64,000 nucleotides of DNA from Alloyangia pacifica. GTDB lineage: Bacteria; Pseudomonadota; Alphaproteobacteria; Rhodobacterales; Rhodobacteraceae. The DNA lies in assembly GCF_020524285.1 (NCBI RefSeq), contig NZ_JAIVKX010000004.1:310001-374000 (forward strand). The letters run 5' to 3'. Under the pieces are notes generated by a model that did no database searches, was not told the DNA's origin, and saw only the letters and a program-made list of their open reading frames with translations. Numbering within the stretch: the stretch's first letter is position 1; the number at the start of each line of letters is the position of its first letter. Shown here piece after piece: positions 7,785 to 50,082 of the stretch. Made by a program: the position numbers and the translations under genes.

Positions 7785-8597
7785 ATGCCCGCACCGAAGA
7801 CATCTCTCGCAGCGCTGATGCTGCTGGTTTCCGCCCCGTCCCTCTCGGCCGCGATCTGCGACTACCGGCCGAGCCGGCTGGTCGGCGACACGGTGAGCGG
7901 CGCGGCGGCCGCCGCCACCGGCGCGGTCGCGCAGGTTACTGGTCACGTCACGGGCCAGCACCGCGGAGACGGCGGCTTCTACACGCTGGTCAATGCCACC
8001 AACGGGCTCACGCTGCTGAGCGGCAAGCTCGCGGCCTCGGGCGGCGCAGCGGGGCTGCTGGAGGGCGGCAGCGCAGCGGCGGCGGCGGCCATGGCCAACC
8101 CGATGGTCTGGGTCCCGGCGCTGATCCTTGGTGCCGGAGGCGCAGGCTACGAGGCGACCTGCGCCTATTTCGTCGACGAACGGATCACCGATTACGAGCA
8201 CGTGCTGATGATCATGCGCGACTTCGAGGCGCATTCCGACCCGAGCTACTTCCGGCTCGAAGAGGACACGCTGAACCCCTTCATCGAGATCCACGACGAG
8301 GCGGGCACCCGTGCCACCTATCGCATCGAGGATCTCTACATCGTCGACGGCATGCTCAAGCACCGCAACTGGGGGCCGAACCGCAAGATCGGCCGGGTTG
8401 TCTTTGTGCCCAACGACGCGCCCAGCGAGGCTGTGCCCGAGGGATCGGTGGTCGAGATGCCGGCGCCGGCTGTGACGACGCCCGATGTGGCGGCCACCGA
8501 GGCCCCGGCCCTCGAGCGGCCGGCCACGGAACCCGCAATGCCAAGCGCGCCCGCCGCAGCTGCCGCGCCCGTCGCGGACGAGCCCGCAACCGAGTAG
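7785..8597 (+). CDS. Secreted or envelope protein, unknown function
   Basis: The 270-residue product starts with a signal peptide (cleavage likely after ALSAA, about residue 22). A Gly/Ala-rich hydrophobic region follows (about 35-120, including AAAAAMANPMVWVPALILGAGGAGY), then a charged beta-rich domain (VDERITDYEHVLMIMRDFEAH) and a Pro/Ala/Glu-rich disordered tail of about 60 residues. The start at 7785 has GGGAG 7 bases upstream. I do not recognise the family. It shares a bidirectional terminator with the convergent DUF4168 gene. Confidence 0.6.
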   Translation: MPAPKTSLAALMLLVSAPSLSAAICDYRPSRLVGDTVSGAAAAATGAVAQVTGHVTGQHRGDGGFYTLVNATNGLTLLSGKLAASGGAAGLLEGGSAAAAAAMANPMVWVPALILGAGGAGYEATCAYFVDERITDYEHVLMIMRDFEAHSDPSYFRLEEDTLNPFIEIHDEAGTRATYRIEDLYIVDGMLKHRNWGPNRKIGRVVFVPNDAPSEAVPEGSVVEMPAPAVTTPDVAATEAPALERPATEPAMPSAPAAAAAPVADEPATE

Positions 8598-8620
8598 AGC
8601 GCCAGACACCCCAACGAAAA

Positions 8621-8644
8621 GAGCCGCCCCCGAGGGGGCGGCTC
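8621..8644. terminator. Bidirectional terminator between convergent genes
   Basis: GAGCCGCCCCC and GGGGGCGGCTC form a perfect 11-base stem with a two-base centre, preceded by AACGAAAA on the plus strand, which supplies a T-run for the minus-strand gene. Confidence 0.75.
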
Positions 8645-8668
8645 CAGGATGACCGTGTATGAGGGGGA

Positions 8669-9091
8669 TCACTCGGTCATCGTCTCGGGACCGGCGGGCG
8701 CGCGCTCTTGCAGCATCGCGAGGATGCGCTCGTTGAGCTCGGGGTCGGCCTGCGCCGCCTGGCCGATCTGGTTGTAGGTGTTCACGTCCATGCCCTCGGT
8801 CTCGTTGACCGCGTCGGCCATTTCGGCCTGGGCTTGCTCGACCAGCGCCTGCTTGCCCTCGGGCTCTTCCTCGGCGTCGATCTGGGTCATGTAGTCCTGC
8901 TGGACCGCCTGAACCTGCGACGCCGCGTCGACGAAGGCGCTCAGCTGCTCTTCGCTGAACTCCAGCGATGGTGCGGCGGGGGCCTCGACAGGCGCTTCGG
9001 GAGTCGCGGTCTGGGCCATCACCGGTGCCATGGGCGCGGCGACGAGAGCTGCGATGACGGTCGACTTAAGCAGGGTGCTCTTGAGGTTCAT
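8669..9091 (-). CDS. DUF4168 domain exported protein
   Basis: A 140-residue protein with a signal peptide (ALVAAPMAPVMAQ, cleavage near residue 26), a short Pro/Glu/Ala linker and a helical domain FSEEQLSAFVDAASQVQAV ending in NQIGQAAQADPELNERI, the pattern of DUF4168. The family is periplasmic and uncharacterised. The start at 9091 has AGGAGA six bases upstream; the frame runs on to 9298 but those residues are low-complexity and lack a ribosome-binding site. Confidence 0.8.
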   Translation of the reverse strand: MNLKSTLLKSTVIAALVAAPMAPVMAQTATPEAPVEAPAAPSLEFSEEQLSAFVDAASQVQAVQQDYMTQIDAEEEPEGKQALVEQAQAEMADAVNETEGMDVNTYNQIGQAAQADPELNERILAMLQERAPAGPETMTE

Positions 9092-9378
9092 AGAAGTCTC
9101 CTTCCGTGGGTCTTGGCGCGGGAGCATCCCGCGACTTCTCCCCAGAGCTAGGTGGGCCCGGTCGCTGCCGCAATGCGGCGAGGCGAAATCTGCGCGTGCA
9201 GGCAGGGACTTGCCGGGATCGTCCCACAAAGGCAGCGGTGAGCCGCCCGCCAAATTCGCCCCGCGGAACCCCGCCGGACAATCAGCGCCGAAAGGCAAGG
9301 ATGCGCCTGTCGCATCACCCGTGCGTGAGCCGCCCTTTTCCCGTGCTACACTCTATCCCGTTCAAGGGAGGATGACTC

Positions 9379-9621
9379 ATGAAACATCTTGCCGCCGCGC
9401 TGGCGCTCTGCCTTGCCGCATCACCCGCCCTCGCCTTTCACTGCCCCGCCGACATGTCGAAGATCGACGCCGCACTCGACGCGGGCCCCGAGCTATCCGA
9501 TGCGGAGCTTGCCCGCGTCCGGCAGCTGCGCGCCGAGGGAGCACGTCTGCACGCCGCCGGGCAGCACCAGCAATCGGTCGACACGTTGGCCGAGGCCATG
9601 CGGATCCTCGGCATCCAGTGA
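9379..9621 (+). CDS. Small periplasmic protein
   Basis: Eighty residues: signal peptide (LAAALALCLAASPALA, cleavage before Phe20) and a mature part of about 60 residues with one Cys and helices ELSDAELARVRQLRAEGARLHAAG that resemble a single TPR-like hairpin. GGGAGGA lies 7 bases before the ATG. A TACACT hexamer 28 bases upstream of the start may be its -10 element. Function unknown; it is divergent from the DUF4168 gene. Confidence 0.65.
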   Translation: MKHLAAALALCLAASPALAFHCPADMSKIDAALDAGPELSDAELARVRQLRAEGARLHAAGQHQQSVDTLAEAMRILGIQ

Positions 9622-9744
9622 CCCGAGATCGCCCCGGGCGCGCGACGGAAAGCGACGAAACCCCTTCCTCCTCAGCCGCTTCGGGTCCATGGTGAACCCC
9701 TACGGCCCGCCGCGCCGGGCCGCCGCAGATGCAGGGAGGGCATC

Positions 9745-10404
9745 TTGGACCCACGCGCCGCCACAACCGTCTACGCCCGCTGGGCGCCGATCTACGACCA
9801 GACCTTCGGGGCAATCACCCAGGCCGCCCGCCGCGCCGCCGTGCGCAAGGTCACCGGCCCGGAGGGCGCGAAGGTGCTCGAGGTCGGCGTCGGCACCGGC
9901 CTGTCCCTGCCGCTCTTGCCGCGCCACATGCGTATCACCGGTGTCGACTACAGCGCCGAGATGCTCGCGCAGGCCCGGCGCCGGGTGGCGCGCATGAACC
10001 TGCCCCACATCGAGTCGCTGCAGCAGATGGACGCGCGCCAGCTCGGCTTTGCGGATGCCAGCTTCGACCGGGTGGTGGCGATGCACATGATCTCGGTGGT
10101 GCCCGAGCCCGAGCGGGTGATGCGCGAGATGGTCCGGGTGCTGAAACCGGGCGGGCAGCTCATCATGTCGAACCACTTCGCCCGCAAGCAGGGGCCGCTG
10201 GCACATCTGTCGCGCCGCACCGCGAAACTCGCCGACCGCATCGGCTGGCATTCGGATTTCGACATCTCGGTGGTGCTGGACACGCCCGGGCTGAGACTGC
10301 TCGAACGCCGCGCCCTGCCACCGGTGGGGATGATGACGCTGCTTGTGCTGGAGCGCACCGATGCCGTGCCGCCGGCGAACAGCCCGGTGCGGCCGAGCGC
10401 CTGA
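9745..10404 (+). CDS. pmtA: Phosphatidylethanolamine N-methyltransferase (PmtA-type)
   Basis: A 219-residue class I SAM-dependent methyltransferase. Motif I is VLEVGVGTGLSLP (residues 44-56), followed by GVDYSAEML and VLKPGGQLIMSNHF. The opening VYARWAPIYDQTFGAIT and the small size match the Rhodobacter-type PmtA that methylates phosphatidylethanolamine on the way to phosphatidylcholine. The start is a TTG at 9745 with GGGAGGG five bases upstream; no in-frame ATG exists nearby. It ends beside a 14-base tandem repeat array. Confidence 0.85.
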   Translation: MDPRAATTVYARWAPIYDQTFGAITQAARRAAVRKVTGPEGAKVLEVGVGTGLSLPLLPRHMRITGVDYSAEMLAQARRRVARMNLPHIESLQQMDARQLGFADASFDRVVAMHMISVVPEPERVMREMVRVLKPGGQLIMSNHFARKQGPLAHLSRRTAKLADRIGWHSDFDISVVLDTPGLRLLERRALPPVGMMTLLVLERTDAVPPANSPVRPSA

Positions 10405-10425
10405 GCTTCCAGATCAGGTGAGCAC

Positions 10426-10492
10426 GATCAGACCGGCACGATCAGACCGGCGCAACCAAACCGGCGCGATCAGACCGGCGCGCGATCAGGCC
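10426..10492. repeat. 14-base tandem repeat array at the pmtA/SDR junction
   Basis: Four units of consensus GATCAGACCGGCGC lie at 10426-10439, 10440-10453, 10454-10467 (degenerate) and 10468-10481, followed by a partial copy that runs into the stop codon of the minus-strand SDR gene. A weaker copy (AGATCAGGTGAGCAC) precedes the array. Probably replication slippage at a gene end; no spacers, so not CRISPR. Confidence 0.85.
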
Positions 10493-11253
10493 AGCATCTG
10501 CCCGTCGCCGCAGACCGAGACCGCCTGCCCCGAGATCGTCCGTCCCCGCGGGCTCGCAAGAAAGAGGATCTGATCGGCGATCTGCTGCGGCGTCACGTAT
10601 TCCTTGAGCGAGGTGTAGGAAAATGCCGCCGCCTCGACCTCGTCGAAGCTCTTGCCGAGCCGCTGCGCCTTGGCCTCGAGCACCCGACGCTGGCGGTCCC
10701 CGGCGACGATGCCCGGCAGGATCGCATTGGCGCGGATGCCGTCCTTGCCCAACTCGATCGACAGCGACTTGGTAAAGCCGATCACCCCCCATTTCGCCGC
10801 CGCATAAGGTGTGCGCAGCGCGAAGCCCACCCGCCCCGCCATCGACGAGAGGTTGAGGATCGAGGCATTGCCACTGGCGCGCAGCGCGGGCACCGCGTGA
10901 CGCACGCAGTGGAACTGCGAGGTGAGGCAGACCGAGAGGCAGCGCTCCCAGTCCTCCGGCGCGATCTCTTCCACCGGGCTTGTCGGCCCGGCGATCCCGG
11001 CGTTGTTGACCAGCACGTCGAGCCCGCCGAGGTCGGCGATGGCCGCCTGCATGAAGGTCTCTATCTGCCCGGCATCGGAGACGTCGCAGCGCTGCTGCCA
11101 CACCTCGGGCGGCAGCCCTGCCAGCGCGGCCGCGTCGATGTCGCAGGTCGCGACGCTGGCGCCCTCGGCGAGGAACCCCTCGACGATCGCCCGCCCGATG
11201 CCCTGCGCCCCGGCGGTGACGATGACCCGCGCGCCCTCGAGACCCAGATTCAC
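10486..11253 (-). CDS. SDR-family NAD(P)-dependent oxidoreductase
   Basis: A classical 255-residue short-chain dehydrogenase. The glycine-rich loop is TAGAQGIG (13-20), Asp37-Ile-Asp39 after the second strand suggests NAD(H) preference, NNAG is at about 83-86, and the Ser and YAAAK catalytic residues are near 136 and 149. It overlaps the upstream GntR gene by four bases (ATGA), so the two are translationally coupled. With the divergent BKACE enzyme it could oxidise a 3-hydroxy acid to the beta-keto acid that BKACE cleaves; the substrate is unknown. Confidence 0.85.
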   Translation of the reverse strand: MNLGLEGARVIVTAGAQGIGRAIVEGFLAEGASVATCDIDAAALAGLPPEVWQQRCDVSDAGQIETFMQAAIADLGGLDVLVNNAGIAGPTSPVEEIAPEDWERCLSVCLTSQFHCVRHAVPALRASGNASILNLSSMAGRVGFALRTPYAAAKWGVIGFTKSLSIELGKDGIRANAILPGIVAGDRQRRVLEAKAQRLGKSFDEVEAAAFSYTSLKEYVTPQQIADQILFLASPRGRTISGQAVSVCGDGQMLA

Positions 11254-11990
11254 GGCAGGATCCTCCGGCGGCTGTCCTCCATCTCCTCGGCGGCATAGGC
11301 GCGGATCAGCTCGGCGGCGACGCGGATGTCCTCGGTCACCGCCTGCGCCGCCGCCGCGCCGTCGCGGAGGCGCAGCGCCTCGCAGAGCTGGCGGTGGTGG
11401 GCGCGCGAGTGGTGGGTGCGCGAGCGGCCGAGTTCCTCTTCCACCGGCATCTCCGCCTGCACCCCGATATCGTAGTTGATGATCGGCCCGGCCTTCAGCC
11501 AGAGCATCGTGATCACCTCCATCAATATCTGCGAGCCCGCGGCGCGATAGAGCGCGAAATGCAGGTCCTTGTTGGCCGCCACCGCCTCTGGGCTGCCGTA
11601 GGCCGTGTCGAGCAACGCCTCGAAGCGCTCGGCCAGCTGCAGGATCTCCTCGATCTGCTCCGGCGTGGCGCGGTCGGCGGCGAGCCGCGCGGCCTGCGCC
11701 TCGGCGAGGATGCGCATCTCGGTGAGATCGGCGAATTCCTCGGCGCTCATCAACGGCACCTGCACCGCGCGTTTCGGCTCGACCAGCAGCGCCCCGCCCG
11801 CGGCGAGCCGGCTCACCGCCTCGCGTACCGGCATCATCGAGACACCCAGACGCTCCGCGAGATCGCGCAGCGAGATGCGGTCGCGCGGCTTGAGCTGCCC
11901 CGAGAGCAGCATCTCGCTGAGGGTTTCATGCACCTGTTCTGACAGTGTGCGGGGGCGCGCCTCCGGCGGCCGCTCGTGAGTTTCAACCAT
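11250..11990 (-). CDS. GntR-family regulator, FCD subfamily
   Basis: A 246-residue regulator with an N-terminal winged helix (LSEQVHETLSEMLLSGQL, LRDLAERLGVSMMPVREAVSRL, residues 16-62) and a C-terminal all-helical FCD ligand domain ending in HHRQLCEALRLRDGAAAAQAV. FCD regulators bind small organic acids through a metal. The gene is divergent from BKACE and upstream of the SDR, so it probably controls both through the inverted sites at 12037-12142. Confidence 0.88.
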   Translation of the reverse strand: MVETHERPPEARPRTLSEQVHETLSEMLLSGQLKPRDRISLRDLAERLGVSMMPVREAVSRLAAGGALLVEPKRAVQVPLMSAEEFADLTEMRILAEAQAARLAADRATPEQIEEILQLAERFEALLDTAYGSPEAVAANKDLHFALYRAAGSQILMEVITMLWLKAGPIINYDIGVQAEMPVEEELGRSRTHHSRAHHRQLCEALRLRDGAAAAQAVTEDIRVAAELIRAYAAEEMEDSRRRILP

Positions 11991-12036
11991 TTTCCCCGGC
12001 TCTCCCCGTTGACTCTTTGCGAGTCCTTCTGCAACT

Positions 12037-12142
12037 GTGATCTCAGATCACACCAGAACGGGCAAGACCGCAACCGTTGATCCCGCGGCAAGGGAGGAAT
12101 GACTGCCACGGGAACTCGGGTCACCAGAATCTGGTGTGATCT
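12037..12142. promoter_or_regulatory. Paired operator sites between GntR and BKACE genes
   Basis: GTGATCTCAGATCAC (12037-12051) is a perfect palindrome about a central C. AGATCACACCAGA (12045-12057) recurs as its exact inverse TCTGGTGTGATCT at 12130-12142, 72 bases away, and the second site includes the palindrome ACCAGAATCTGGT (12124-12136). A TTGACT hexamer at 12009-12014 lies just upstream of the first site. Two matched sites in a divergent promoter suggest cooperative or looping control by the adjacent GntR protein. Confidence 0.6.
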
Positions 12143-12254
12143 TTGCACCATAGCCGCTGCAGGCCTGAAGGGGGAGGATCACAATGCATCTGAAACAGGA
12201 CCATGTCCGTCCACCGGCCCGCCCGGCGCCGCGGACCTGAGCCGGGACAGCAGC

Positions 12255-13184
12255 ATGGCAAAGACCCGCAAGGTGATCGTGACCTGCGCCGTGACCGGCG
12301 CGATCCACACCCCCTCGATGTCGCAATACCTGCCGGTCTCCGCCTCGGAGATCGCCGAGGCCGCCATCGGTGCCGCCGAGGCGGGCGCCGCGGTGGTGCA
12401 CCTGCATGCCCGCGATCCGAGGGACGGCCGCCCCGACCAGACGCCCGAGGCCTTCACGCCCTTCCTGCAGGTGATCAAGCAGGCCTCGAACGTGGTGGTG
12501 AACATCACCACCGGCGGCGCCCCGACGATGACCATCGAGGAGCGCATCTGCCCGGCTCAGACCCACCGGCCCGAGATCGCCTCGCTCAACATGGGCTCGA
12601 TGAACTTCGGCCTGTTCCCGATGCTGCAGCGCTTCCCGGACCTCGAGCACCAGTGGGAGCGCGACTACGTCGGCAACAAGGACATCATCTTCAACAACAG
12701 CTTCGGGCAGATCGAGCATATCGTCACCACGCTCGGCGCGCTCGGCACCCGCTTCGAATTCGAGTGCTACGACACGGCGCATCTCTACAACCTCAAGCAC
12801 TTCCTCGATCAGGGGCTGGTGAAGGGACCGCTGTTCATCCAGACCGTCTTTGGCCTGATGGGCGGGATTGGCGCGCATCCGGACGACGTGCTGCACATGA
12901 AGCGCACCGCGGACCGGCTCTTCGGTGACCAGTACCGCTGGTCGGTGCTCGGCGCCGGGAAGAACCAGTTGCCCATTGCCGCCATGGCCGCCGCGATGGG
13001 CGGGCACGTGCGCGTCGGGCTCGAGGATTCGCTCTGGGCCGGACCGGGGCAGCTGGCGCGCAGCAACGCCGAGCAGGTGGCCAAGGCGCGGCAGATCATC
13101 GAGGGGCTGGGCCTGGAGCTGGCGACGCCGGAAGAGGCCCGCGAGATCCTCGACACGAAAGGCGCGGAGGCGGTCGGTTTCTGA
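12255..13184 (+). CDS. Beta-keto acid cleavage enzyme (BKACE, DUF849)
   Basis: A 309-residue TIM-barrel enzyme. The zinc histidines are in VVHLHARD (His49, His51), with NITTGGAP, SLNMGSMNFG, GLMGGIGAHPDD and GLEDSLW all typical of the family. BKACE enzymes react a beta-keto acid with acetyl-CoA to give acetoacetate and a new CoA ester. The Glu after TGA in the lysine-fermentation enzyme Kce is replaced here (TGAIHTPSMS), so it is not the 3-keto-5-aminohexanoate enzyme. Carnitine-derived dehydrocarnitine is one possible substrate, but the usual carnitine dehydrogenase is not adjacent. Followed by a terminator. Confidence 0.88.
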   Translation: MAKTRKVIVTCAVTGAIHTPSMSQYLPVSASEIAEAAIGAAEAGAAVVHLHARDPRDGRPDQTPEAFTPFLQVIKQASNVVVNITTGGAPTMTIEERICPAQTHRPEIASLNMGSMNFGLFPMLQRFPDLEHQWERDYVGNKDIIFNNSFGQIEHIVTTLGALGTRFEFECYDTAHLYNLKHFLDQGLVKGPLFIQTVFGLMGGIGAHPDDVLHMKRTADRLFGDQYRWSVLGAGKNQLPIAAMAAAMGGHVRVGLEDSLWAGPGQLARSNAEQVAKARQIIEGLGLELATPEEAREILDTKGAEAVGF

Positions 13185-13233
13185 GCCGGTCCCGCGCGGT
13201 CATCCCCCCGGGAGAGAAGCATGCTCCCAGACT

Positions 13234-13270
13234 GCCCCCGTCGCCCCTCATAGCGCCGGGGGCTCTTTTT
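13234..13270 (+). terminator. Intrinsic terminator of the BKACE gene
   Basis: GCCCCCGTCGC (13234-13244) and GCGCCGGGGGC (13253-13263) form an 11-base stem with one mismatch, followed by TCTTTTTG. Confidence 0.8.
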
Positions 13271-13324
13271 GTCTGGTTCAGTGAACCGAGCCGCGCGGAA
13301 TCAAGGTCGAAGGCCGCCGGGCAA

Positions 13325-13437
13325 GCGCCAGCCCGTCCCGGCGGGTTGGCGCACTTGCCACCGGGCACCGCGTTCGGACGGCACACGGAGTTGGCTGGAA
13401 TAAAGTGCTGACTACAATCGTCTTGGCGCCACCCTAG
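13325..13437 (+). repeat. Dispersed ~115-bp intergenic element, copy 1
   Basis: Begins with the self-complementary block GCGCCAGCCCG...CGGGTTGGCGC, contains GGAATAAAGTGCTGAC near 13398-13412 and ends with GGCGCCACCC. The same ordered blocks occur inverted at 22393-22508. No ORF inside. Confidence 0.7.
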
Positions 13438-13474
13438 GGGCAGGCTCCCGCCCGACGCACGTAGCCCCCTGCCC

Positions 13475-14347
13475 TCAGGGTTTCCGGAACAGCCGCGTCA
13501 GCTCGAACAGCTGGTCCAACCGCTCGAACCGCTCGCGCGCATCGGGCCAGCGTTCCTCCTGCGCAGCGGCGACCAGCGCCTCGACCAGCGACAGGGTGGA
13601 GATGTTCGAATCCCAGGCCGAGGGGATCTCGACCCAGCAGTTGAACGCATGCTCGGCGACGCTGGCGATCGGGCTCGACCACTGGTCGGTGATCAGGATC
13701 ACGTGCATTCCGCGCGCCGCGGCGATCTCGGCCAGCCGCTGCAGGTTGTCCTCGTAGCGGCGGATGTCGAAGATCAGCAGAGTGTCGCCCTCCTCCATGT
13801 CCAGCACGTAGTGCGGCCATGTGGCGGACGACGAGGTCAGATGGGTGACCCGCGCCCGGATCGCCTGGAAATGGGTGAAGGCATATTCCGCCAGCGAGCG
13901 GGTGATCCGCCCGCCGACCACGTAGAGCCGCCCCTCGGTCGAGGCCAGCCGCTTCGCCGCCGCGTCGAACTGCGCGGCGTCGATATTGGTGAAGGTCTGC
14001 CGCAGGTTCTGCGTCACCGCCTCGGCGAAGCGGTTGAGCAGGTGCGACTCCGGCGCCTCCGAGGCCCAGACCGCGCGCCGCGCCTCGGGGCCCGAGACCT
14101 TGGCCTGCAGCTCCGAGAGCAGCGCCGCGTGAAAGGCCGGGTAGCCCTTGAACCCCAGCTTCTGCACCATCCGCGCGACGGTGGGCGTCGACACACCGGC
14201 GTTCGATGCAGCCGCGGTGATCGAGGCGATCCCCGCGCCGGGGTAATCGTCGAGCAGCGCCTGCGCGAACTTGCGCTCGGAATTTGTCAGCTGCGCGTAA
14301 TGCTCGCGGATGAGCTGGCGCACGGTGCCGGACGGGCTGGTGTCCAC
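13475..14347 (-). CDS. RpiR-family transcriptional regulator (HTH + SIS domain)
   Basis: A 290-residue regulator with an N-terminal RpiR helix-turn-helix (ITAAASNAGVSTPTVARMVQ, about residues 43-62) and a C-terminal SIS domain (RLYVVGGRITRSLAEYAF, LIFDIRRYEDNLQRLAEIA, VILITDQWSSPI), the fold that senses phosphosugars or other polar ligands. Start is a GTG at 14347 with AAGGGA five bases upstream. It is divergent from the amidohydrolase-TRAP-GS operon and is the likely regulator of it. Confidence 0.88.
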   Translation of the reverse strand: MDTSPSGTVRQLIREHYAQLTNSERKFAQALLDDYPGAGIASITAAASNAGVSTPTVARMVQKLGFKGYPAFHAALLSELQAKVSGPEARRAVWASEAPESHLLNRFAEAVTQNLRQTFTNIDAAQFDAAAKRLASTEGRLYVVGGRITRSLAEYAFTHFQAIRARVTHLTSSSATWPHYVLDMEEGDTLLIFDIRRYEDNLQRLAEIAAARGMHVILITDQWSSPIASVAEHAFNCWVEIPSAWDSNISTLSLVEALVAAAQEERWPDARERFERLDQLFELTRLFRKP

Positions 14348-14427
14348 GGGCGTCCCTTCGTCTCCGGTCCAAAATTTGAGCAGATTTCGGCACCACTTAG
14401 CGGCAGGTCACATCCGCCGAAATCCTC

Positions 14428-14477
14428 TTTGGAAAATTATTGACGCATTATCCATCGCGTGGAAAGGTTTTTCCAAA
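14428..14477. promoter_or_regulatory. Promoter and inverted operator of the amidohydrolase-TRAP operon
   Basis: TTTGGAAAA (14428-14436) is matched by its exact inverse TTTTCCAAA (14469-14477). Between them lies TTGACG (14440-14445), a good -35 element; the -10 17 bases downstream would be the weak AAAGGT. The AT-rich inverted repeat flanking the promoter is the natural candidate for RpiR binding. Confidence 0.5.
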
Positions 14478-14492
14478 CGCGAGGAGGCAGAC

Positions 14493-15266
14493 GTGTCGCA
14501 GGAAGACGCCAGTGCATTTGAAGTGAGCAGAGCCCTCGGCAAGGGACCGGCACTGTTTCTCTGCGAGCATGCTTCGAACAGGATTCCCGCGCGCTACGAC
14601 GGGCTCGGCCTGCACGAGGAAGACCAGCGCAGCCACGCCGCCTGGGATCCGGGTGCGCTGGCACTGGCGCAACGGATGGCCGAGGCGCTCGACGCGCCGC
14701 TGGTCGCTGGCACGGTCTCGCGCCTCGTCTACGACCTGAACCGCCCGCCCGAGGCCGTCTCGGCCATGCCCGGCAAGACCGAGACGGTGGACGTTCCGGG
14801 CAACATCGACCTCTCGCCCGAGGAGCGCGCCCACCGCACCCGCGAGATCTACGACCCCTTCTGCGCCGCGGTGACCGGCACCGTGGTGACCCGCAAGACC
14901 CTGGGCACGCCCTTTGCCCTGATCACCGTGCACAGCTTCACGCCGACCTGGTTCGACATTCCCCGCGAGGTCGAGATCGGCATCCTGCACGACGCGGACA
15001 GCCGCCTTGCCGACTACATGCTCGACGAGGCAACCCGCCTGCCCGGCCGCCGCATCGCGCGCAACGATCCCTACGGTCCAGAGGACGGCGTGACCCATTC
15101 GCTGAAACTGCACGGCATCGAAAACGGGCTGCCGAACGTGATGATCGAAGTGCGCAACGACCTGCTCGCCGACGAGACCGGGATCGAGATGATCGCCGGG
15201 GAACTGCTGACCCTGCTGCGCCCGGCGCTGGCGGGTCTTGGACTGATGGAGGCCGGACATGCCTGA
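14493..15266 (+). CDS. N-formylglutamate amidohydrolase-fold enzyme
   Basis: A 257-residue enzyme of the FGase family (PF05013): LCEHASNRIPARYDGLGL, HAAWDPGALALA, VYDLNRPPEAVSAMPGK and ALITVHSFTP are family hallmarks. These metal-dependent amidohydrolases release glutamate from an amide. No hut genes are present, so histidine breakdown is not its context. Given the ligase and two dehydrogenases in the same operon I infer hydrolysis of a glutamyl amide. The start is a GTG at 14493 with GAGGAGG five bases upstream; a longer open frame upstream is in the promoter. It overlaps dctQ by eight bases. Confidence 0.85.
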   Translation: MSQEDASAFEVSRALGKGPALFLCEHASNRIPARYDGLGLHEEDQRSHAAWDPGALALAQRMAEALDAPLVAGTVSRLVYDLNRPPEAVSAMPGKTETVDVPGNIDLSPEERAHRTREIYDPFCAAVTGTVVTRKTLGTPFALITVHSFTPTWFDIPREVEIGILHDADSRLADYMLDEATRLPGRRIARNDPYGPEDGVTHSLKLHGIENGLPNVMIEVRNDLLADETGIEMIAGELLTLLRPALAGLGLMEAGHA

Positions 15267-15855
15267 GGCCATGGTCTGTTACGTGCGGATAATCGACAAG
15301 ATGAATCGCGCCATCGGGCGCTTCGCCATGTACCTGCTCTTTGCGCTGATCGGCGTGCTGATCTGGTCCTCGGTGTCCAAGACCTTCTTCACCCCCACGC
15401 TCTGGACGCTGGAGACGGCGCAATTCATCATGGTCGCCTACTACGTGCTGGGCGGCCCCTACTCGATCCAGATGGGATCGAACGTGCGGATGGACTTCTT
15501 CTACGGCGACTGGTCGCCGCGCCGCCGCGCCATCGTCGACGTGATCACCATCTGGTTCCTGCTGTTCTACCTCGGCGTGCTGCTCTGGGGGGCGATCAGC
15601 TCCACCGCCTACAGCTTCGGCTATTTCGGCACCGAGCCCTTCAAGTTCTTCGGCGAGCTGATCTGGGCCTTCGTCACCGGCGGGCCCGACGCGGCGGGCG
15701 AGCTGATGGGCTATCTGGAACGCAGCCCGAGCGCCTGGCGCCCCTACGTCTGGCCGGTGAAGGTCATCCTGTGCTTCGGCGTCACGCTGATGATTTTGCA
15801 ATGCGTCGCCGAGTTCTTCCGCGACATCGCCCGCATCCGCGGAGAGGACATCTGA
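15259..15855 (+). CDS. dctQ: TRAP transporter small membrane subunit
   Basis: A 198-residue four-helix membrane protein (spans about 18-40, 55-75, 92-115 and 160-185) of the DctQ type, partner of the DctM channel. It is longer than many DctQ proteins because of an insertion (FGYFGTEPFKFFGELIWAFV, then TGGPDAAGEL) before the last helix. GGAGG lies six bases before the ATG, inside the end of the amidohydrolase gene; its stop overlaps the start of dctM by one base. Confidence 0.88.
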   Translation: MPEAMVCYVRIIDKMNRAIGRFAMYLLFALIGVLIWSSVSKTFFTPTLWTLETAQFIMVAYYVLGGPYSIQMGSNVRMDFFYGDWSPRRRAIVDVITIWFLLFYLGVLLWGAISSTAYSFGYFGTEPFKFFGELIWAFVTGGPDAAGELMGYLERSPSAWRPYVWPVKVILCFGVTLMILQCVAEFFRDIARIRGEDI

Positions 15856-17180
15856 TGTCGCAAGACCTGATCGCAATCGTCATGTTCTCGGGCATGCTGG
15901 GCCTGCTGCTGACAGGGCAGCGCGTGTTCGGTGCCATCGGGTTCGTCGCCGTCGTGGCCGCGCTGTGCCTGTGGGGCGACCGGGGCGGCTTCGACCTGGG
16001 CTTTGCCGCCTCGATCAAGCTGATGAAATGGTACCCGCTGCTAACCCTGCCGATGTTCATCTTCATGGGCTACGTGCTGTCGGAATCGAAGATCGCCGAC
16101 GACCTCTACAAGATGTTCCACGTCTGGATGGGCGGCCTCTCGGGGGGCCTCGCGGTGGGCACCATCGGGCTGATGGTGCTGATCTCGGCAATGAACGGCC
16201 TGTCCGTGGCGGGCATGGCCATCGGCGCGACCATCGCCCTGCCCGAACTGCTGAAGCGCGGCTACGACAAGCGCATGGTCACGGGGGTGATCCAGGCGGG
16301 ATCGAGCTTGGGCATCCTCGTGCCGCCCTCGGTGGTGCTGGTGCTCTACGCGATGATCGCCCGCCAGCCGGTGGGTCAGCTCTGGCTCGCGGGCATCATT
16401 CCGGGGCTCATCATGGCGGCGGCCTTCATCGTCTACATCGTCATCCGCTGCAAGCTGAACCCCGAACTGGGTCCGATCCTGCCCAAGGCCGACCGCGACA
16501 TTCCCATGGCCGAGAAGCTGCGCCTGCTGCGCGCCGGGCTGCTGCCTCTGGTGATCTTCTTCGTGATGATGGTGCCCTTCGTGCGCGGCTGGACCTCGCT
16601 GGTGGAAAGTTCGGCCATCGGCGCCGTCGCCGCCTTCGTCGCCGCGGTCATCAAGGGCCGGATGACCCGCGAGGTCTTCGAGAACTCGGTGCGCAACACG
16701 CTCGGCGTGTCGTGCATGTTCATGTGGATCATCCTCGCCGCCCTCGCCTTCGGCGCGGTCTTCGACGGGCTCGGCGCGGTCAGCGCCATCGAGGAGCTGT
16801 TCACCGAGAAGCTTGGCCTGTCCCCCTGGATGATCCTCATCCTGATGCAGCTGAGCTTCATCGTCATGGGCACCTTCCTCGACGACACGGCGATGCTGGT
16901 GATCGTGGCCCCGCTCTACGTGCCGCTGGTCGGACACCTCGGGTTCGACCTTGTGTGGTACGGTGTGCTCTACACCATCACCTGCCAGATCGCCTACATG
17001 ACCCCGCCCTTCGGCTACAACCTCTTCCTGATGCGCGCCATGGCCCCGCCGCAGATCGGCCTGCGCGACATCTACACCTCGATCATCCCCTTCGTGGCGG
17101 TGATGACCGTGGTGCTCGCCATCATCATGATCTTCCCCGAGCTGGCCCTGTGGCTGCCGGACCTCGTCTACCAGAACTAA
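15855..17180 (+). CDS. dctM: TRAP transporter large permease subunit
   Basis: A 441-residue protein with about twelve membrane spans, including the DctM signatures PMFIFMGYVLSESKIADDLY, GSSLGILVPPSVVLVLYAMI and the C-terminal DDTAMLVIVAPLYVPLV. It is the sodium-coupled channel half of the TRAP transporter. The start overlaps the dctQ stop (TGATG). Confidence 0.92.
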   Translation: MSQDLIAIVMFSGMLGLLLTGQRVFGAIGFVAVVAALCLWGDRGGFDLGFAASIKLMKWYPLLTLPMFIFMGYVLSESKIADDLYKMFHVWMGGLSGGLAVGTIGLMVLISAMNGLSVAGMAIGATIALPELLKRGYDKRMVTGVIQAGSSLGILVPPSVVLVLYAMIARQPVGQLWLAGIIPGLIMAAAFIVYIVIRCKLNPELGPILPKADRDIPMAEKLRLLRAGLLPLVIFFVMMVPFVRGWTSLVESSAIGAVAAFVAAVIKGRMTREVFENSVRNTLGVSCMFMWIILAALAFGAVFDGLGAVSAIEELFTEKLGLSPWMILILMQLSFIVMGTFLDDTAMLVIVAPLYVPLVGHLGFDLVWYGVLYTITCQIAYMTPPFGYNLFLMRAMAPPQIGLRDIYTSIIPFVAVMTVVLAIIMIFPELALWLPDLVYQN

Positions 17181-17237
17181 CAACGAGACCCCCGCAAAGA
17201 GGGGCACAGACCTCAACCACGCAACAGGAGAGACAAG

Positions 17238-18275
17238 ATGACACTGACACGACGCAAGATCCTGAGCGGTGCCGCACTGGCCGCTCCGGCTGCGCTCGCG
17301 GCGCCCTCCATCGGCCGCGCGCAGGAGCCGATCAAGTGGCGCTTCCAGACCTACGCGGGTGCCGCCCTCGGCGAACAGGTGACCAAGCCGATCGTCGACT
17401 ACATCAACACTGCCGCCCAGGGCGAGCTGGAGATCGAGCTCTACTACGCCGACCAGATCGTGCCCACCGGCGAGCTGTTCCAGGCGCTGCAGCGCGGCAC
17501 TATCGACGCCGTGCACTCGGATGACGACTCCATGGCGTCGCCGACCCCGATGCGCGTCTTCGGCGGCTACTTCCCGTTCGCCACCAAGCACATCCTCGAC
17601 GTGCCGGTGCTCTTCGAGCAATACGGGCTCGCCGACATCTGGCGCTCGGAATACGAGAAGGTCGGCGTGACCTGGCTTTCCGCTGCCGGTCAGGATCCGT
17701 GCAACTTCAACACCAAGAAAGAGATCACCAGCCTTGCCGATCTCGACGGGCTGAAGCTCTACACCTTCCCCACCGCGGGCCGCTTCCTGAGCCAGTTCGG
17801 CGTGGTGCCGGTGAACATCCCCTACGAGGATGCCGAGGTCGCGGTGCAGACCGGCGAGCTCGATGGCATGGCCTGGTCGGGCATCACCGAGGACTACACC
17901 GTCGGCTGGGCGAACGTCACCGACTACTTCCTGACCAACAACATCTCGGGTGCCTGGATCGGCTCGATCTTCGTCAACCAGCAGCGTTGGGCCGACCTGC
18001 CCGAGCACCTCAAGACGCTGGTGATGTCGGCGATCAAGGCCGCCGACACCTACCGCAACCAGTGGTACTGGGGCGGCGAGGCCAAGCTGCGCGCCACCGG
18101 CGACAAGCTGCAGCTGCGCTCGGTGCCGCCGGAAGAATGGGCCGAGGTCGAGAACGCCGCCAAGGAGTTCTGGAAGGAGATCGCCCAGGAAAGCGAAATC
18201 CACGCCAAGGTCGTCTCGATCTTCGAGGAGTACAACGGCGTCATCAACCAGGCGGGCCCGCCCTACACCTTCTGA
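17238..18275 (+). CDS. dctP: TRAP transporter substrate-binding protein, atypical ligand site
   Basis: A 345-residue periplasmic DctP-type receptor with a twin-arginine-like leader (TRRKILSGAALAAPAALAAP, cleavage near AQ29). The central LADLDGLKL-YTFPT aligns with the motif GLK-(I/L)-R-x-P in which nearly all DctP proteins have an arginine that binds the ligand carboxylate; here that position is Tyr175. I infer that the ligand is not a simple carboxylate, consistent with an amine or alcohol. AGGAGA lies upstream of the ATG. A strong hairpin follows the gene, as often seen where the receptor must be made in excess. Confidence 0.88.
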   Translation: MTLTRRKILSGAALAAPAALAAPSIGRAQEPIKWRFQTYAGAALGEQVTKPIVDYINTAAQGELEIELYYADQIVPTGELFQALQRGTIDAVHSDDDSMASPTPMRVFGGYFPFATKHILDVPVLFEQYGLADIWRSEYEKVGVTWLSAAGQDPCNFNTKKEITSLADLDGLKLYTFPTAGRFLSQFGVVPVNIPYEDAEVAVQTGELDGMAWSGITEDYTVGWANVTDYFLTNNISGAWIGSIFVNQQRWADLPEHLKTLVMSAIKAADTYRNQWYWGGEAKLRATGDKLQLRSVPPEEWAEVENAAKEFWKEIAQESEIHAKVVSIFEEYNGVINQAGPPYTF

Positions 18276-18296
18276 GGCCAGATGCCCTAGCGACAC

Positions 18297-18327
18297 CCGG
18301 CCTCCGCGCAGCTTGCGCGGGGGCCGG
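18297..18327 (+). terminator. Hairpin between dctP and the glutamine-synthetase-like gene
   Basis: CCGGCCTCCGCGCA and TGCGCGGGGGCCGG pair over 14 bases (one G-T) around GCT. There is no T-run, so it more probably stabilises or partly attenuates the message than ends it. Confidence 0.55.
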
Positions 18328-18402
18328 ACCTGTAGAAGAGTTTGATCAAATCTCCGCGCCCGCCGCGCGGCCCAAGGACAAGACCAGCAAGGAGCACGCG
18401 GA

Positions 18403-19767
18403 ATGACCGCCCCCCTGACCTTAGACGACCTGAAGAACGCCGCCGCTTCCGGCGAGATCGATACCGTCCTCGTGTGCGTGGTGGACATGCAGGGCCGTCT
18501 GCAGGGCAAGCGCTTCCATGTCTCCAACTTCCTCGAGCATGCGATCGAGGAGACGCATTGCTGCAACTACCTCTTCGCCACCGACCTGGTGATGAGCACC
18601 CCCGAGGGCTTCGCCTCCACGAGCTGGGCCTCGGGCTATGGCGACTACGTGATGAAGCCCGACCTCGCGACGCTGCGCCGCGTGCCCTGGCTCGAGGGCA
18701 CCGCGATGATCCTCTGCGACGTGATGGACCACCACACCCACGCGCCGGTGCCGGAATCCCCGCGCCAGATGCTGCAGAAGCAGATCGCCCGCGCCGAGGC
18801 CATGGGCCTCACGCCGATGATGGCAACCGAGCTGGAATTTTTCCTCTACGCCCGCTCCTACGACGAGATCCGCCACAGCGGCTGGCGCGATCTGGAAACC
18901 CTCTCGCCCTACAACCAGGACTATTCCATCCAGCTCACCAGCCGCGAGGAATACGTCATGCGCCCGGTGCGCAACCACCTCTACGCCATGGGCGTGCCGG
19001 TGGAATGCAGCAAGGGCGAGGCCGAGCACGGCCAGGAAGAGCTGAACATCCGCTACGCCGACGCGCTGACCTGTGCCGACCACCACGCGATCTCCAAGCA
19101 CGCGGTCAAGGAAATCGCCCACCAGCAGGGCCACGGAGCGACCTTCATGGCGAAGTGGCAGGCCGACAAGGTCGGCAGCGCGGCGCATATCCACCAGTCG
19201 TTGTTCAAGGGGACGGAAAACGCCTTCTACGACAAGGACGGCGCGCATTGCATGTCGCAGACCATGAAGCACTACGTTGCGGGCCTGCTGAAATACGCCC
19301 CCGAGGTGACGCTCTTCATGGCGCCCTACATCAACAGCTACAAGCGCTTCGCTCCCGGCACCTTCGCGCCCACCAAGACCGCCTGGTCGGTGGACAACCG
19401 CACCGCCGGCTTCCGTCTCGTCGGCGAGGATACCAAGGGCGTGCGCATCGAGTGCCGCATTCCCGGCTCGGACATGAACCCCTACCTCGCCTGCGCCGCG
19501 CAGCTTGCTGCAGGGCTTGCCGGGATCGAAGAGAAGCTGGAGCTGCCCTCCCCCGCCCAGGGCGACGTCTACGGCATGGATGACGTGCCGGACGTGCCGA
19601 ACACCCTGCGCGCCGCGATCGACGCCTTTGCCGGCTCGGACATGCTGCGCGCCGCCTTCGGCGAGGATGTCATCGAGCATTTTGCCCATGCCGCCCGGAT
19701 CGAGCAGGAAGACTTCGACCGCGCGGTCACCGACTACGAGCTGGCGCGCGGCTTCGAGCGCGCCTGA
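18403..19767 (+). CDS. Glutamine-synthetase-like gamma-glutamyl ligase
   Basis: A 454-residue GS-fold ligase. Metal and ATP site residues are kept: ELEFF (143-147), ECSKGEAEHGQEELN (201-215), SAAHIHQSL with His262/His264, KRFAPGTFAPTKTAWSVDNR, and RIECRIPGSDMNPYLA. It has GlnT/PuuA-like rather than GlnA features and lies in a catabolic operon, so it probably joins glutamate to an amine to make a gamma-glutamyl amide instead of making glutamine. The start at 18403 follows GGAGCACGCGGA. Eleven bases separate it from the aldehyde dehydrogenase. Confidence 0.85.
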   Translation: MTAPLTLDDLKNAAASGEIDTVLVCVVDMQGRLQGKRFHVSNFLEHAIEETHCCNYLFATDLVMSTPEGFASTSWASGYGDYVMKPDLATLRRVPWLEGTAMILCDVMDHHTHAPVPESPRQMLQKQIARAEAMGLTPMMATELEFFLYARSYDEIRHSGWRDLETLSPYNQDYSIQLTSREEYVMRPVRNHLYAMGVPVECSKGEAEHGQEELNIRYADALTCADHHAISKHAVKEIAHQQGHGATFMAKWQADKVGSAAHIHQSLFKGTENAFYDKDGAHCMSQTMKHYVAGLLKYAPEVTLFMAPYINSYKRFAPGTFAPTKTAWSVDNRTAGFRLVGEDTKGVRIECRIPGSDMNPYLACAAQLAAGLAGIEEKLELPSPAQGDVYGMDDVPDVPNTLRAAIDAFAGSDMLRAAFGEDVIEHFAHAARIEQEDFDRAVTDYELARGFERA

Positions 19768-19777
19768 GGAGGCTCTC

Positions 19778-21157
19778 ATGACGACACTGAACAACATTTC
19801 CCCCATCGACGGCTCGGTCTTCGCCTCGCGCGAGACGCTGCCCCTCGACATGGCGCGCGAAGCCGCGAAATCGGCTCGCGCCGCACAGGCCGCATGGGCC
19901 GCCCGCCCGCTGGCCGAGCGCGTCGAGCTGGTGATGAAGGGCGTCGCCGAGATCGGCGCGCAGAACGAGGCGATCGTGCCCGAGCTGGCGCAGATGATGG
20001 GCCGGCCGGTCCGCTACGGCGGCGAGTTCGGCGGCTTCAACGAGCGCGCCTCCTACATGGCCGAGATCGCCGAGGGCGCGCTGGCCGACATAGAGGTCGG
20101 CGACAACGCCACCTTCAAGCGCTACATCAAGCGCGTGCCGCATGGCGTGGTCTTCGTGGTCTCGCCCTGGAACTACCCCTATATGACCGCGATCAACACC
20201 GTTGCCCCGGCACTCATCGCCGGCAACACCGTGGTGCTGAAGGGCGCGACGCAGACGCTGCTGGTCGGCGAGCGGCTGGCCAACGCCTTCCACAAGGCCG
20301 GCGTGCCCGAGGCGGTGTTCCAGAACCTCTATCTCGACCATGACACGACCTCGGCGCTGATCGCCGAGGGCGCCTTCAATTTCGTCAACTTCACCGGCTC
20401 TGTCGGCGGCGGCAAGGCCATCGAGCGCGCCGCGGCGGGCACCTTCACCGGGCTCGGGCTCGAGCTCGGCGGCAAGGATCCGGGCTACGTGATGGAGGAC
20501 GCGGATGTGGAGGCCGCGGTCGACACGCTGATCGACGGCGCCATGTTCAACTCCGGCCAGTGCTGCTGCGGCATCGAGCGCATCTACGTGCACGAGAGCC
20601 TCTTCGACGCCTTCGTCGAGAAGGCCGTGGCAGTGGTGAAGGGCTACAAGCTCGGCAACCCGCTCGACACGGAGACCACCATCGGCCCGATGGCCAACGT
20701 CCGCTTTGCGCAGGAGGTTCGCGCGCAGATCAAGGAGGCGCTGGAGATGGGGGCCAAGGCCCATATCGACACCTTCCCCGAGGACGACGGCGCCGCCTAC
20801 CTGACGCCGCAGATTCTGACGAACGTGACCCACGAGATGCGCGTCATGCGCGACGAGAGTTTCGGCCCGGTCGTCGGCATCATGAAGGTGAAGGACGACG
20901 CCGAAGCGATTGCCCTGATGAACGACAGCCCCTTCGGCCTCACCGCCTCGCTTTGGACGCAGGACGTGGCGCGTGCGCAGAAGGTCGGCGACGCCATCGA
21001 GACCGGCACCGTCTTCATGAACCGCGCCGACTACCTCGATCCCGGCCTGTGCTGGACCGGCTGCAAGCAGACCGGGCGCGGCGGCGGCCTGTCGGTCATC
21101 GGCTACCACAACCTCACCCGCCCAAAATCCTACCATCTCAAGAAGGTGACGAAATGA
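19778..21157 (+). CDS. NAD(P)-dependent aldehyde dehydrogenase
   Basis: A 459-residue aldehyde dehydrogenase. The catalytic cysteine is Cys263 in NSGQCCCGIER, the general base Glu229 in ELGGKDPGY, and VVFVVSPWNYPYM and NFTGSVGGGK line the cofactor site. Three successive cysteines (262-264) are unusual but occur in the family. In the proposed pathway it oxidises the aldehyde formed by the neighbouring alcohol dehydrogenase. GAGGAGG lies seven bases before the ATG. Its stop overlaps the next start (ATGA). Confidence 0.9.
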   Translation: MTTLNNISPIDGSVFASRETLPLDMAREAAKSARAAQAAWAARPLAERVELVMKGVAEIGAQNEAIVPELAQMMGRPVRYGGEFGGFNERASYMAEIAEGALADIEVGDNATFKRYIKRVPHGVVFVVSPWNYPYMTAINTVAPALIAGNTVVLKGATQTLLVGERLANAFHKAGVPEAVFQNLYLDHDTTSALIAEGAFNFVNFTGSVGGGKAIERAAAGTFTGLGLELGGKDPGYVMEDADVEAAVDTLIDGAMFNSGQCCCGIERIYVHESLFDAFVEKAVAVVKGYKLGNPLDTETTIGPMANVRFAQEVRAQIKEALEMGAKAHIDTFPEDDGAAYLTPQILTNVTHEMRVMRDESFGPVVGIMKVKDDAEAIALMNDSPFGLTASLWTQDVARAQKVGDAIETGTVFMNRADYLDPGLCWTGCKQTGRGGGLSVIGYHNLTRPKSYHLKKVTK

Positions 21158-22299
21158 GCCTCACCGCCAATTGGTCCTACCCTACCGCCATCAAGTTCGG
21201 CGCGGGCCGCATCGCGGAACTGCCCGCCGCCTGCGCGCAGGCCGGCATCACCAGGCCGCTGCTGGTCACCGACCGCGGCCTCGCCGCGCTGCCGGTCACC
21301 GAGAGCACCATCGCCGTGCTTGAAACCGCCGGCCTGCATTGCGGTCTTTTCTCGGATGTCGATCCCAACCCCAACGAGCGCAACCTCGCCGCGGGCGTCG
21401 CGGCCTACAACGCGGGCGGCTACGACGGGGTCATCGCCTTCGGCGGCGGCTCCGGCCTCGACCTCGGCAAATGCGTGGCCTTCATGGCAGGTCAGACCCG
21501 GCCGGTCTGGGATTTCGAGGACATCGGTGACTGGTGGACCCGCGCCGATGCCGACGCCATCGCCCCCATCGTCGCCGTGCCGACCACCGCTGGCACCGGC
21601 TCGGAGGTCGGGCGCGCGGGCGTTCTGACCAACTCCGAGACCCACGAGAAGAAGATCATCTTCCACCCCAAGATGCTTCCTGCCGTGGTGATCTGCGACC
21701 CCGAACTGACTGTCGGCATGCCCAAAGCGATCACCGCCGGCACCGGGCTCGACGCCTTTGCGCATTGCGTCGAGGCCTTCTCCTCGCCGCACTACCACCC
21801 GATGAGCCAGGGCATCGCGCTCGAGGGCATGCGGCTCGTGATCGAGTACCTGCCCCGCGCCTATGCCGACGGCACCGACATTGAGGCCCGCGCCCAGATG
21901 ATGAGCGCCGCGGCCATGGGCGCCACCGCCTTCCAGAAGGGCCTCGGCGCGATCCACGCGATGAGCCACCCCATCGGCGCACACTTCGGCACCCATCACG
22001 GCACCACCAATGCCGTCTGCATGCCCGCCGTGCTGAAGTTCAACGCGGACGCCATCCGCGACCGCTTCGACACCGCGGCAAGCTATCTCGGCATCGAGGG
22101 CGGCTTCGACGGCTTCTGCGCCTTCGTGGACCAATTCAACGACAGCCTCGGCGTGCCCAAGGGGCTGACCGCGCTCGGCGTGACCGAAGAGTCGATCCCC
22201 GAGCTGGTGAAAGGCGCGATCAAGGATCCGTCCTGCGGCGGCAACCCGATCGAGCTGACCGAAGAGAACCTCGAGGCGCTGTTCCGCGCCGCGATGTGA
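21154..22299 (+). CDS. Iron-containing alcohol dehydrogenase
   Basis: A 381-residue group III alcohol dehydrogenase. GGGSGLDLGK (97-106) binds NAD(P), and the metal ligands are Asp200, His204, His268 and His282 with the family spacing. It is translationally coupled to the aldehyde dehydrogenase by a four-base overlap, which argues that they act in sequence on the same carbon: alcohol to aldehyde to acid. Last gene of the operon, followed by a terminator. Confidence 0.9.
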   Translation: MSLTANWSYPTAIKFGAGRIAELPAACAQAGITRPLLVTDRGLAALPVTESTIAVLETAGLHCGLFSDVDPNPNERNLAAGVAAYNAGGYDGVIAFGGGSGLDLGKCVAFMAGQTRPVWDFEDIGDWWTRADADAIAPIVAVPTTAGTGSEVGRAGVLTNSETHEKKIIFHPKMLPAVVICDPELTVGMPKAITAGTGLDAFAHCVEAFSSPHYHPMSQGIALEGMRLVIEYLPRAYADGTDIEARAQMMSAAAMGATAFQKGLGAIHAMSHPIGAHFGTHHGTTNAVCMPAVLKFNADAIRDRFDTAASYLGIEGGFDGFCAFVDQFNDSLGVPKGLTALGVTEESIPELVKGAIKDPSCGGNPIELTEENLEALFRAAM

Positions 22300-22320: not shown

Positions 22321-22348
22321 GGGCCGGGGCGCAAACTCCGGCCCTTTT
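22321..22348 (+). terminator. Terminator of the amidohydrolase-TRAP-GS-ALDH-ADH operon
   Basis: GGGCCGG (22321-22327) and CCGGCCC (22338-22344) with a ten-base loop, followed by TTTT. Confidence 0.75.
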
Positions 22349-49931: not shown

Positions 49932-50082
49932 TTGCATCATCCTGCAGCGTTGTTGCGCTGGATCCACAACAGGCGACACCGCGAAGTCATTGATTCTTGC
50001 ATGGAAACAGGTTTCCGCGCAGACTGCTCGCAAAGGCGGGCGCCACGACCCGCTCCCGAGGCGTGATCGAAAGGCAGGTCAC

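Follow-up and report, generated by a model that had tools for sequence, protein, structure and literature searches.

An EtoVWX-type operon of Alloyangia pacifica with a probable role in ethanolamine import and catabolism through gamma-glutamyl intermediates

Introduction

Ethanolamine is a major phospholipid headgroup. In this work we describe an eight-gene locus at positions 13475-22299 of a 64 kb window (the whole stretch of DNA analysed, from contig NZ_JAIVKX010000004.1 of the 5.73 Mb genome of Alloyangia pacifica), which very probably serves ethanolamine import and catabolism of the type that combines the TRAP transporter EtoVWX with gamma-glutamylation.

The closest described system is the operon MED193_10021-10056 of Phaeobacter sp. 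MED193 (Westermann et al. 2023, PMC10132767). By rising locus tag it comprises RpiR, gamma-glutamylglycine amidohydrolase (GGAH), EtoV, EtoW, EtoX, ethanolamine gamma-glutamylase (ETAGA), gamma-glutamylacetaldehydeamide dehydrogenase (GAADDH) and gamma-glutamylethanolamide dehydrogenase (GETADH). EtoX of MED193 binds ethanolamine (dissociation constant 7.9 uM). Of the eight products, five (the hydrolase, EtoX, the ligase and both dehydrogenases) were raised on phosphorylethanolamine, while the pathway figure carries the label 'predicted' (PMC10132767). According to the same work, about 5 to 10% of ocean bacteria carry etoX.

A related system is the Csal_0678/Csal_0679 region of Chromohalobacter salexigens. 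The PDB entry 4uab represents Csal_0678 in complex with ethanolamine (PMC12410723), and this protein lacks the arginine with which TRAP binding proteins hold carboxylates (PMC4646407). The C. salexigens pathway (Vetting et al. 2015) is called demonstrated in PMC10132767 and predicted in silico in another later paper. In Streptomyces coelicolor, GlnA4 was shown to be a gamma-glutamylethanolamide synthetase, and a member of the formylglutamate amidohydrolase family was proposed in 2019 as the gamma-glutamylglycine hydrolase of the last step (PMC6529630).

Results and Discussion

Gene content and comparison with known systems

The locus consists of a divergent RpiR gene and a run of seven plus-strand genes, all of them open frames at the positions given below. 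Matches above the Pfam cut-offs were obtained for SIS/HTH_6, FGase, DctQ, DctM, DctP and Gln-synt_C. The packing is tight, with overlaps between FGase and DctQ, DctQ and DctM, and the aldehyde and alcohol dehydrogenase genes, and the remaining neighbours overlap or nearly abut.

13475..14347, minus strand: divergent RpiR-family regulator (HTH_6 and SIS by Pfam); at least 35% identity in 68 of the 80 loci compared below; corresponds in position to the RpiR gene that heads the MED193 list
14460..14475, strandless: candidate RpiR operator, perfect inverted repeat TGGAAA-N4-TTTCCA between RpiR and FGase
14493..15266, plus strand: FGase-family amidohydrolase (PF05013, GTG start), probable gamma-glutamylglycine hydrolase
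15259..15855, plus strand: TRAP small permease DctQ (PF04290), EtoV position
15855..17180, plus strand: TRAP large permease DctM (PF06808), EtoW position
17238..18275, plus strand: TRAP solute-binding protein DctP (EtoX), predicted ethanolamine binder (Pfam DctP; PDB 4uab/4xf5)
18403..19767, plus strand: glutamine synthetase (GS)-like gamma-glutamyl ligase, putative ethanolamine glutamylase (Pfam Gln-synt_C; PDB 5dm3)
19778..21157, plus strand: aldehyde dehydrogenase, presumed to convert gamma-glutamyl-acetaldehyde to gamma-glutamylglycine (many NCBIfam aldehyde dehydrogenase models below cut-off; PDB matches)
21154..22299, plus strand: iron-containing alcohol dehydrogenase, presumed to convert gamma-glutamylethanolamide to the aldehyde (PDB matches to enzymes of the methanol, propanediol and lactaldehyde types)
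22321..22344, plus strand: terminator-like hairpin with T tail, 3' of the alcohol dehydrogenase gene (hairpin scan)

These are the same eight gene types as in MED193, in an order equal to that of the MED193 locus tags, and no difference in gene content was seen. In the proposed pathway, the TRAP transporter would import ethanolamine and the GS-like ligase would join it to glutamate at the expense of ATP, giving gamma-glutamylethanolamide. The iron-containing dehydrogenase would oxidise the alcohol of this conjugate to gamma-glutamyl-acetaldehyde, the aldehyde dehydrogenase would take the latter to gamma-glutamylglycine, and the FGase-family hydrolase would release glycine and glutamate. The S. 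coelicolor GlnA4 route shares these intermediates and includes a proposed formylglutamate-family hydrolase and dehydrogenases, whereas its cluster lacks a TRAP transporter and encodes a dehydrogenase predicted to be of the short-chain type.

The preliminary description of this DNA, which was made from the letters and translated frames, had proposed a plus-strand operon with a divergent RpiR gene for the breakdown of amino alcohols or amines through gamma-glutamyl conjugates. The gene set is real, the limits given there (14493-22299) are exact and the regulator lies just outside them. Its order of steps, namely glutamylation, oxidation of the alcohol, oxidation of the aldehyde and hydrolysis, is that of the published MED193 scheme and of the scheme proposed for S. 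coelicolor. As to the substrate, the most likely one is specifically ethanolamine. The hydrolase, the alcohol dehydrogenase and the TRAP importer, by which the locus was set apart from Puu-type routes, are all present, but none is novel since all three occur in published descriptions. The pathway was thus read correctly but is published in all its parts, and the operon is a member of a described type. Binding and proteome data come from the MED193 paper; what the present analysis adds is small: the candidate operator, the terminator-like hairpin and the finding of eutBC elsewhere in the genome. An unaided reading of raw sequence recovered a pathway otherwise worked out by structure and proteomics, and the operon can be used as a marker for ethanolamine recycling.

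Binding protein

DctP matches PDB 4uab/4xf5 at 477.4 bits while the next chain reaches only 67.1 bits. It is identical to Csal_0678 at 205 of 320 aligned residues (64%). The genome encodes 34 other proteins of the DctP family, of which 30 were aligned with DctP and Csal_0678. One column holds arginine in 28 of the 30 paralogues, Tyr175 in the window protein and Phe174 (chain count) in Csal_0678. By this alignment the Tyr175 column appears to be the position of the carboxylate-binding arginine, and tyrosine in its place would fit Csal_0678, which likewise lacks that residue.

The same chemistry could serve another small amino alcohol, e.g. alaninol or 1-amino-2-propanol, as the main natural substrate and yield alanine-like products. 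The enzymes and the binding pocket could take a methyl group, and the second PDB entry, 4xf5, has the same sequence as 4uab and contains what we take to be an aminopropanol. This is nevertheless improbable, as 4uab is an ethanolamine complex and the binding protein is highly conserved across 81 sequences; moreover, the MED193 homologue binds ethanolamine in the micromolar range given above and is induced by phosphorylethanolamine (PMC10132767).

Ligase and hydrolase

Among PDB sequences the ligase matched 5dm3, presumably a C. salexigens protein, at 665.5 bits and 11zs at 542 bits, followed by glutamine synthetases at no more than 194 bits. It stays below the NCBIfam cut-offs for GlnA (267.7 vs 429.15 bits) and for GS III (241 vs 469.6 bits). 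The DGSS loop, retained in the GlnA of this genome, is replaced in the ligase by LFATDL; we assume that the loop at this position shapes the ammonium site of glutamine synthetase. Two additional adjacent GS-like genes were found on contig C8 (62164-65265), possibly another cluster for amine glutamylation.

Escherichia coli Puu shares the logic of glutamylation, oxidation and hydrolysis, and a route of this kind acting on putrescine or a different diamine would also include a GS-like ligase, an aldehyde dehydrogenase and a hydrolase. Puu uses an amine oxidase step and a hydrolase of the class I amidotransferase type. The window ligase misses the Puu ligase model, with 218.6 bits against the cut-off of 650 for GGputSyn (gamma-glutamylputrescine synthetase), the iron-containing dehydrogenase suits an alcohol and not an amine oxidase step, and the importer belongs to the type that binds ethanolamine, all of which makes a diamine route very improbable.

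The hydrolase scores about 133.5-133.9 bits against PF05013 and matches a single PDB sequence, 2odf (Atu2144), at 247.6 bits. Against the same Pfam model, two other FGase proteins of the genome reach much higher scores (250.5 and 247.3 bits). The HutG model (NCBIfam TIGR02017) gives 22 bits for the window hydrolase, far below the cut-off of 278.75. These two results agree with the earlier view that the FGase fold here is not for histidine. As its Pfam family name might suggest, the protein could be an N-formylglutamate deformylase whose gene merely happens to neighbour a transporter and dehydrogenases of unrelated function. This is hardly credible given the HutG score and the fact that FGase and transporter genes are adjacent in 71 of 80 loci. 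Residues C24, H26, D52, H147 and E219, with others, are kept among 69 sequences of the hydrolase. A second FGase-family protein (contig C7, 277712-278323) resembles the window hydrolase around the conserved histidine motifs.

Conservation in relatives

From at least 573 candidates, 80 loci were kept, each encoding a relative of the binding protein, and a gene was counted as present at 35% identity or more over more than half its length. All eight genes occur in the same order and orientation in 59 of the 80 loci, and therefore the arrangement is not due to chance. The term 'island', applied to the locus before, should be replaced by conserved operon. Gene by gene, presence amounts to 68 loci for RpiR, 71 for FGase, 79 for DctQ, 80 each for DctM and DctP, 74 for the ligase, 70 for the aldehyde dehydrogenase and 69 for the alcohol dehydrogenase. 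The genes, their homology and their conserved order are matters of observation.

Among the loci fetched, that of Alloyangia mangrovi is the nearest: its binding protein shares 98% identity with the one in the window, and the order of all twelve neighbouring genes tested is unchanged. Nearly all records carry Rhodobacteraceae-type names, with a few others, e.g. Salinarimonas, Oricola and Roseibium; the query recovers close relatives only, so that this spread is not the full taxonomic range.

At least seven of the 21 other loci run off a contig end (L016, L026, L027, L029, L043, L055 and L061). Two (L038 and L059) are without the aldehyde dehydrogenase, and in L084 the RpiR protein falls under the threshold at 33% identity.

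Several points weigh against the assignment to ethanolamine catabolism or narrow it. The transporter is kept without ligase or dehydrogenases in L031 and L042 and stands alone in L032, L060 and L082, and no FGase match was obtained even at an E-value of 0.01 in five loci (L044, L048, L057, L062 and L078); the parts are therefore separable. The likeness to MED193 is one of gene order by locus tag and of annotation. A PLoS paper describes Glu220 of Csal_0678 as the platform for the amine of ethanolamine; two glutamates of Csal_0678, E206 and E217 by chain count, are candidates for this residue, and both are matched by the near-invariant E207 and E218 of the window protein. Every enzyme step in this organism, and the regulation as well, is one that we infer. 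Finally, eutBC is present in the genome (see below), and hence the operon may not be the sole ethanolamine route.

For the loci lacking FGase, Pfam scans of the upstream frames in L057, L078 and L048 showed no replacement hydrolase. These frames encode an ABC transporter (L057), a glucanotransferase and its neighbour (L078), and a SAICAR synthetase and a zinc alcohol dehydrogenase (L048), while L044 ends at a contig boundary. L062 shares the open reading frame layout of L057, and in both the stretch 8103-14986 holds the ethanolamine transporter, ligase and dehydrogenases, with neither FGase hydrolase nor RpiR detected nearby. The hydrolase of these two may lie elsewhere in the genome or belong to another family. 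Around the transporter-only loci L060, L082 and L032, a Pfam search of seven frames gave nothing of the pathway.

Possible second ethanolamine route

EutB was found at one place in the genome, outside the window (contig C26, 47464-48750), with eutC adjoining it; the operon itself contains neither gene. The pair on C26 is possibly a separate route for ethanolamine. An amidase and an SBP_bac_5 protein are encoded near it.

Candidate operator and regulation

The divergent RpiR is likely a local regulator of the operon acting at 14460-14475, to judge from the palindrome TGGAAA-N4-TTTCCA at that site. The palindrome was chosen after the window sequence had been seen, and the relatives share descent, for which reasons it is presented as a candidate operator. 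We surveyed 70 RpiR-FGase intergenic regions, 69 from the loci and one from the window. With at most two mismatches the palindrome occurs in 18 of the 70, compared with 19 of 1400 shuffled regions, and its presence goes with the relatedness of the regulator: it is found in 15 of the 16 regions whose RpiR is at least 65% identical (window included), against 3 of 54 with a more distant RpiR. The latter carry other palindromes, and the motif is thus not general. When the spacer was varied from 2 to 6, the regions with at most two mismatches numbered 5, 7, 18, 14 and 4, the count of 14 at spacer 5 being probably due to a T run.

Within the window the pattern was found twice with at most one mismatch (the second time at 50002), where 0.01 was expected. 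The exact palindrome is present at two places in the genome and the reversed control pattern at none; around the second exact site (C12:32457), no RpiR context was seen in the surrounding stretch. In the literature passages on this operon type, no operator for its RpiR was found. A more elaborate role is conceivable though rather unlikely, in which RpiR, as repressor or activator of the ethanolamine route with its own operator, would sense a gamma-glutamyl intermediate through its SIS domain, which normally binds sugar phosphates, and would divide ethanolamine between the operon and EutBC.

Flanking features

The hairpin downstream of the operon is weak evidence when taken alone, the scan having given nine such sites against 3.4 expected. 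On the other side, the stretch 10486-13184 comprises a BKACE gene, an SDR gene and a divergently oriented regulator of the GntR/FCD type. The BKACE gene (12255-13184) scores 531.9 bits against the NCBIfam model '3,5-dioxohexanoate:acetyl-CoA acetone transferase' (cut-off 430). Near the ethanolamine operon of relatives, BKACE occurs in two of the 80 loci and GntR and SDR in one each, and because they are so rarely beside it, we regard this group as a separate module.

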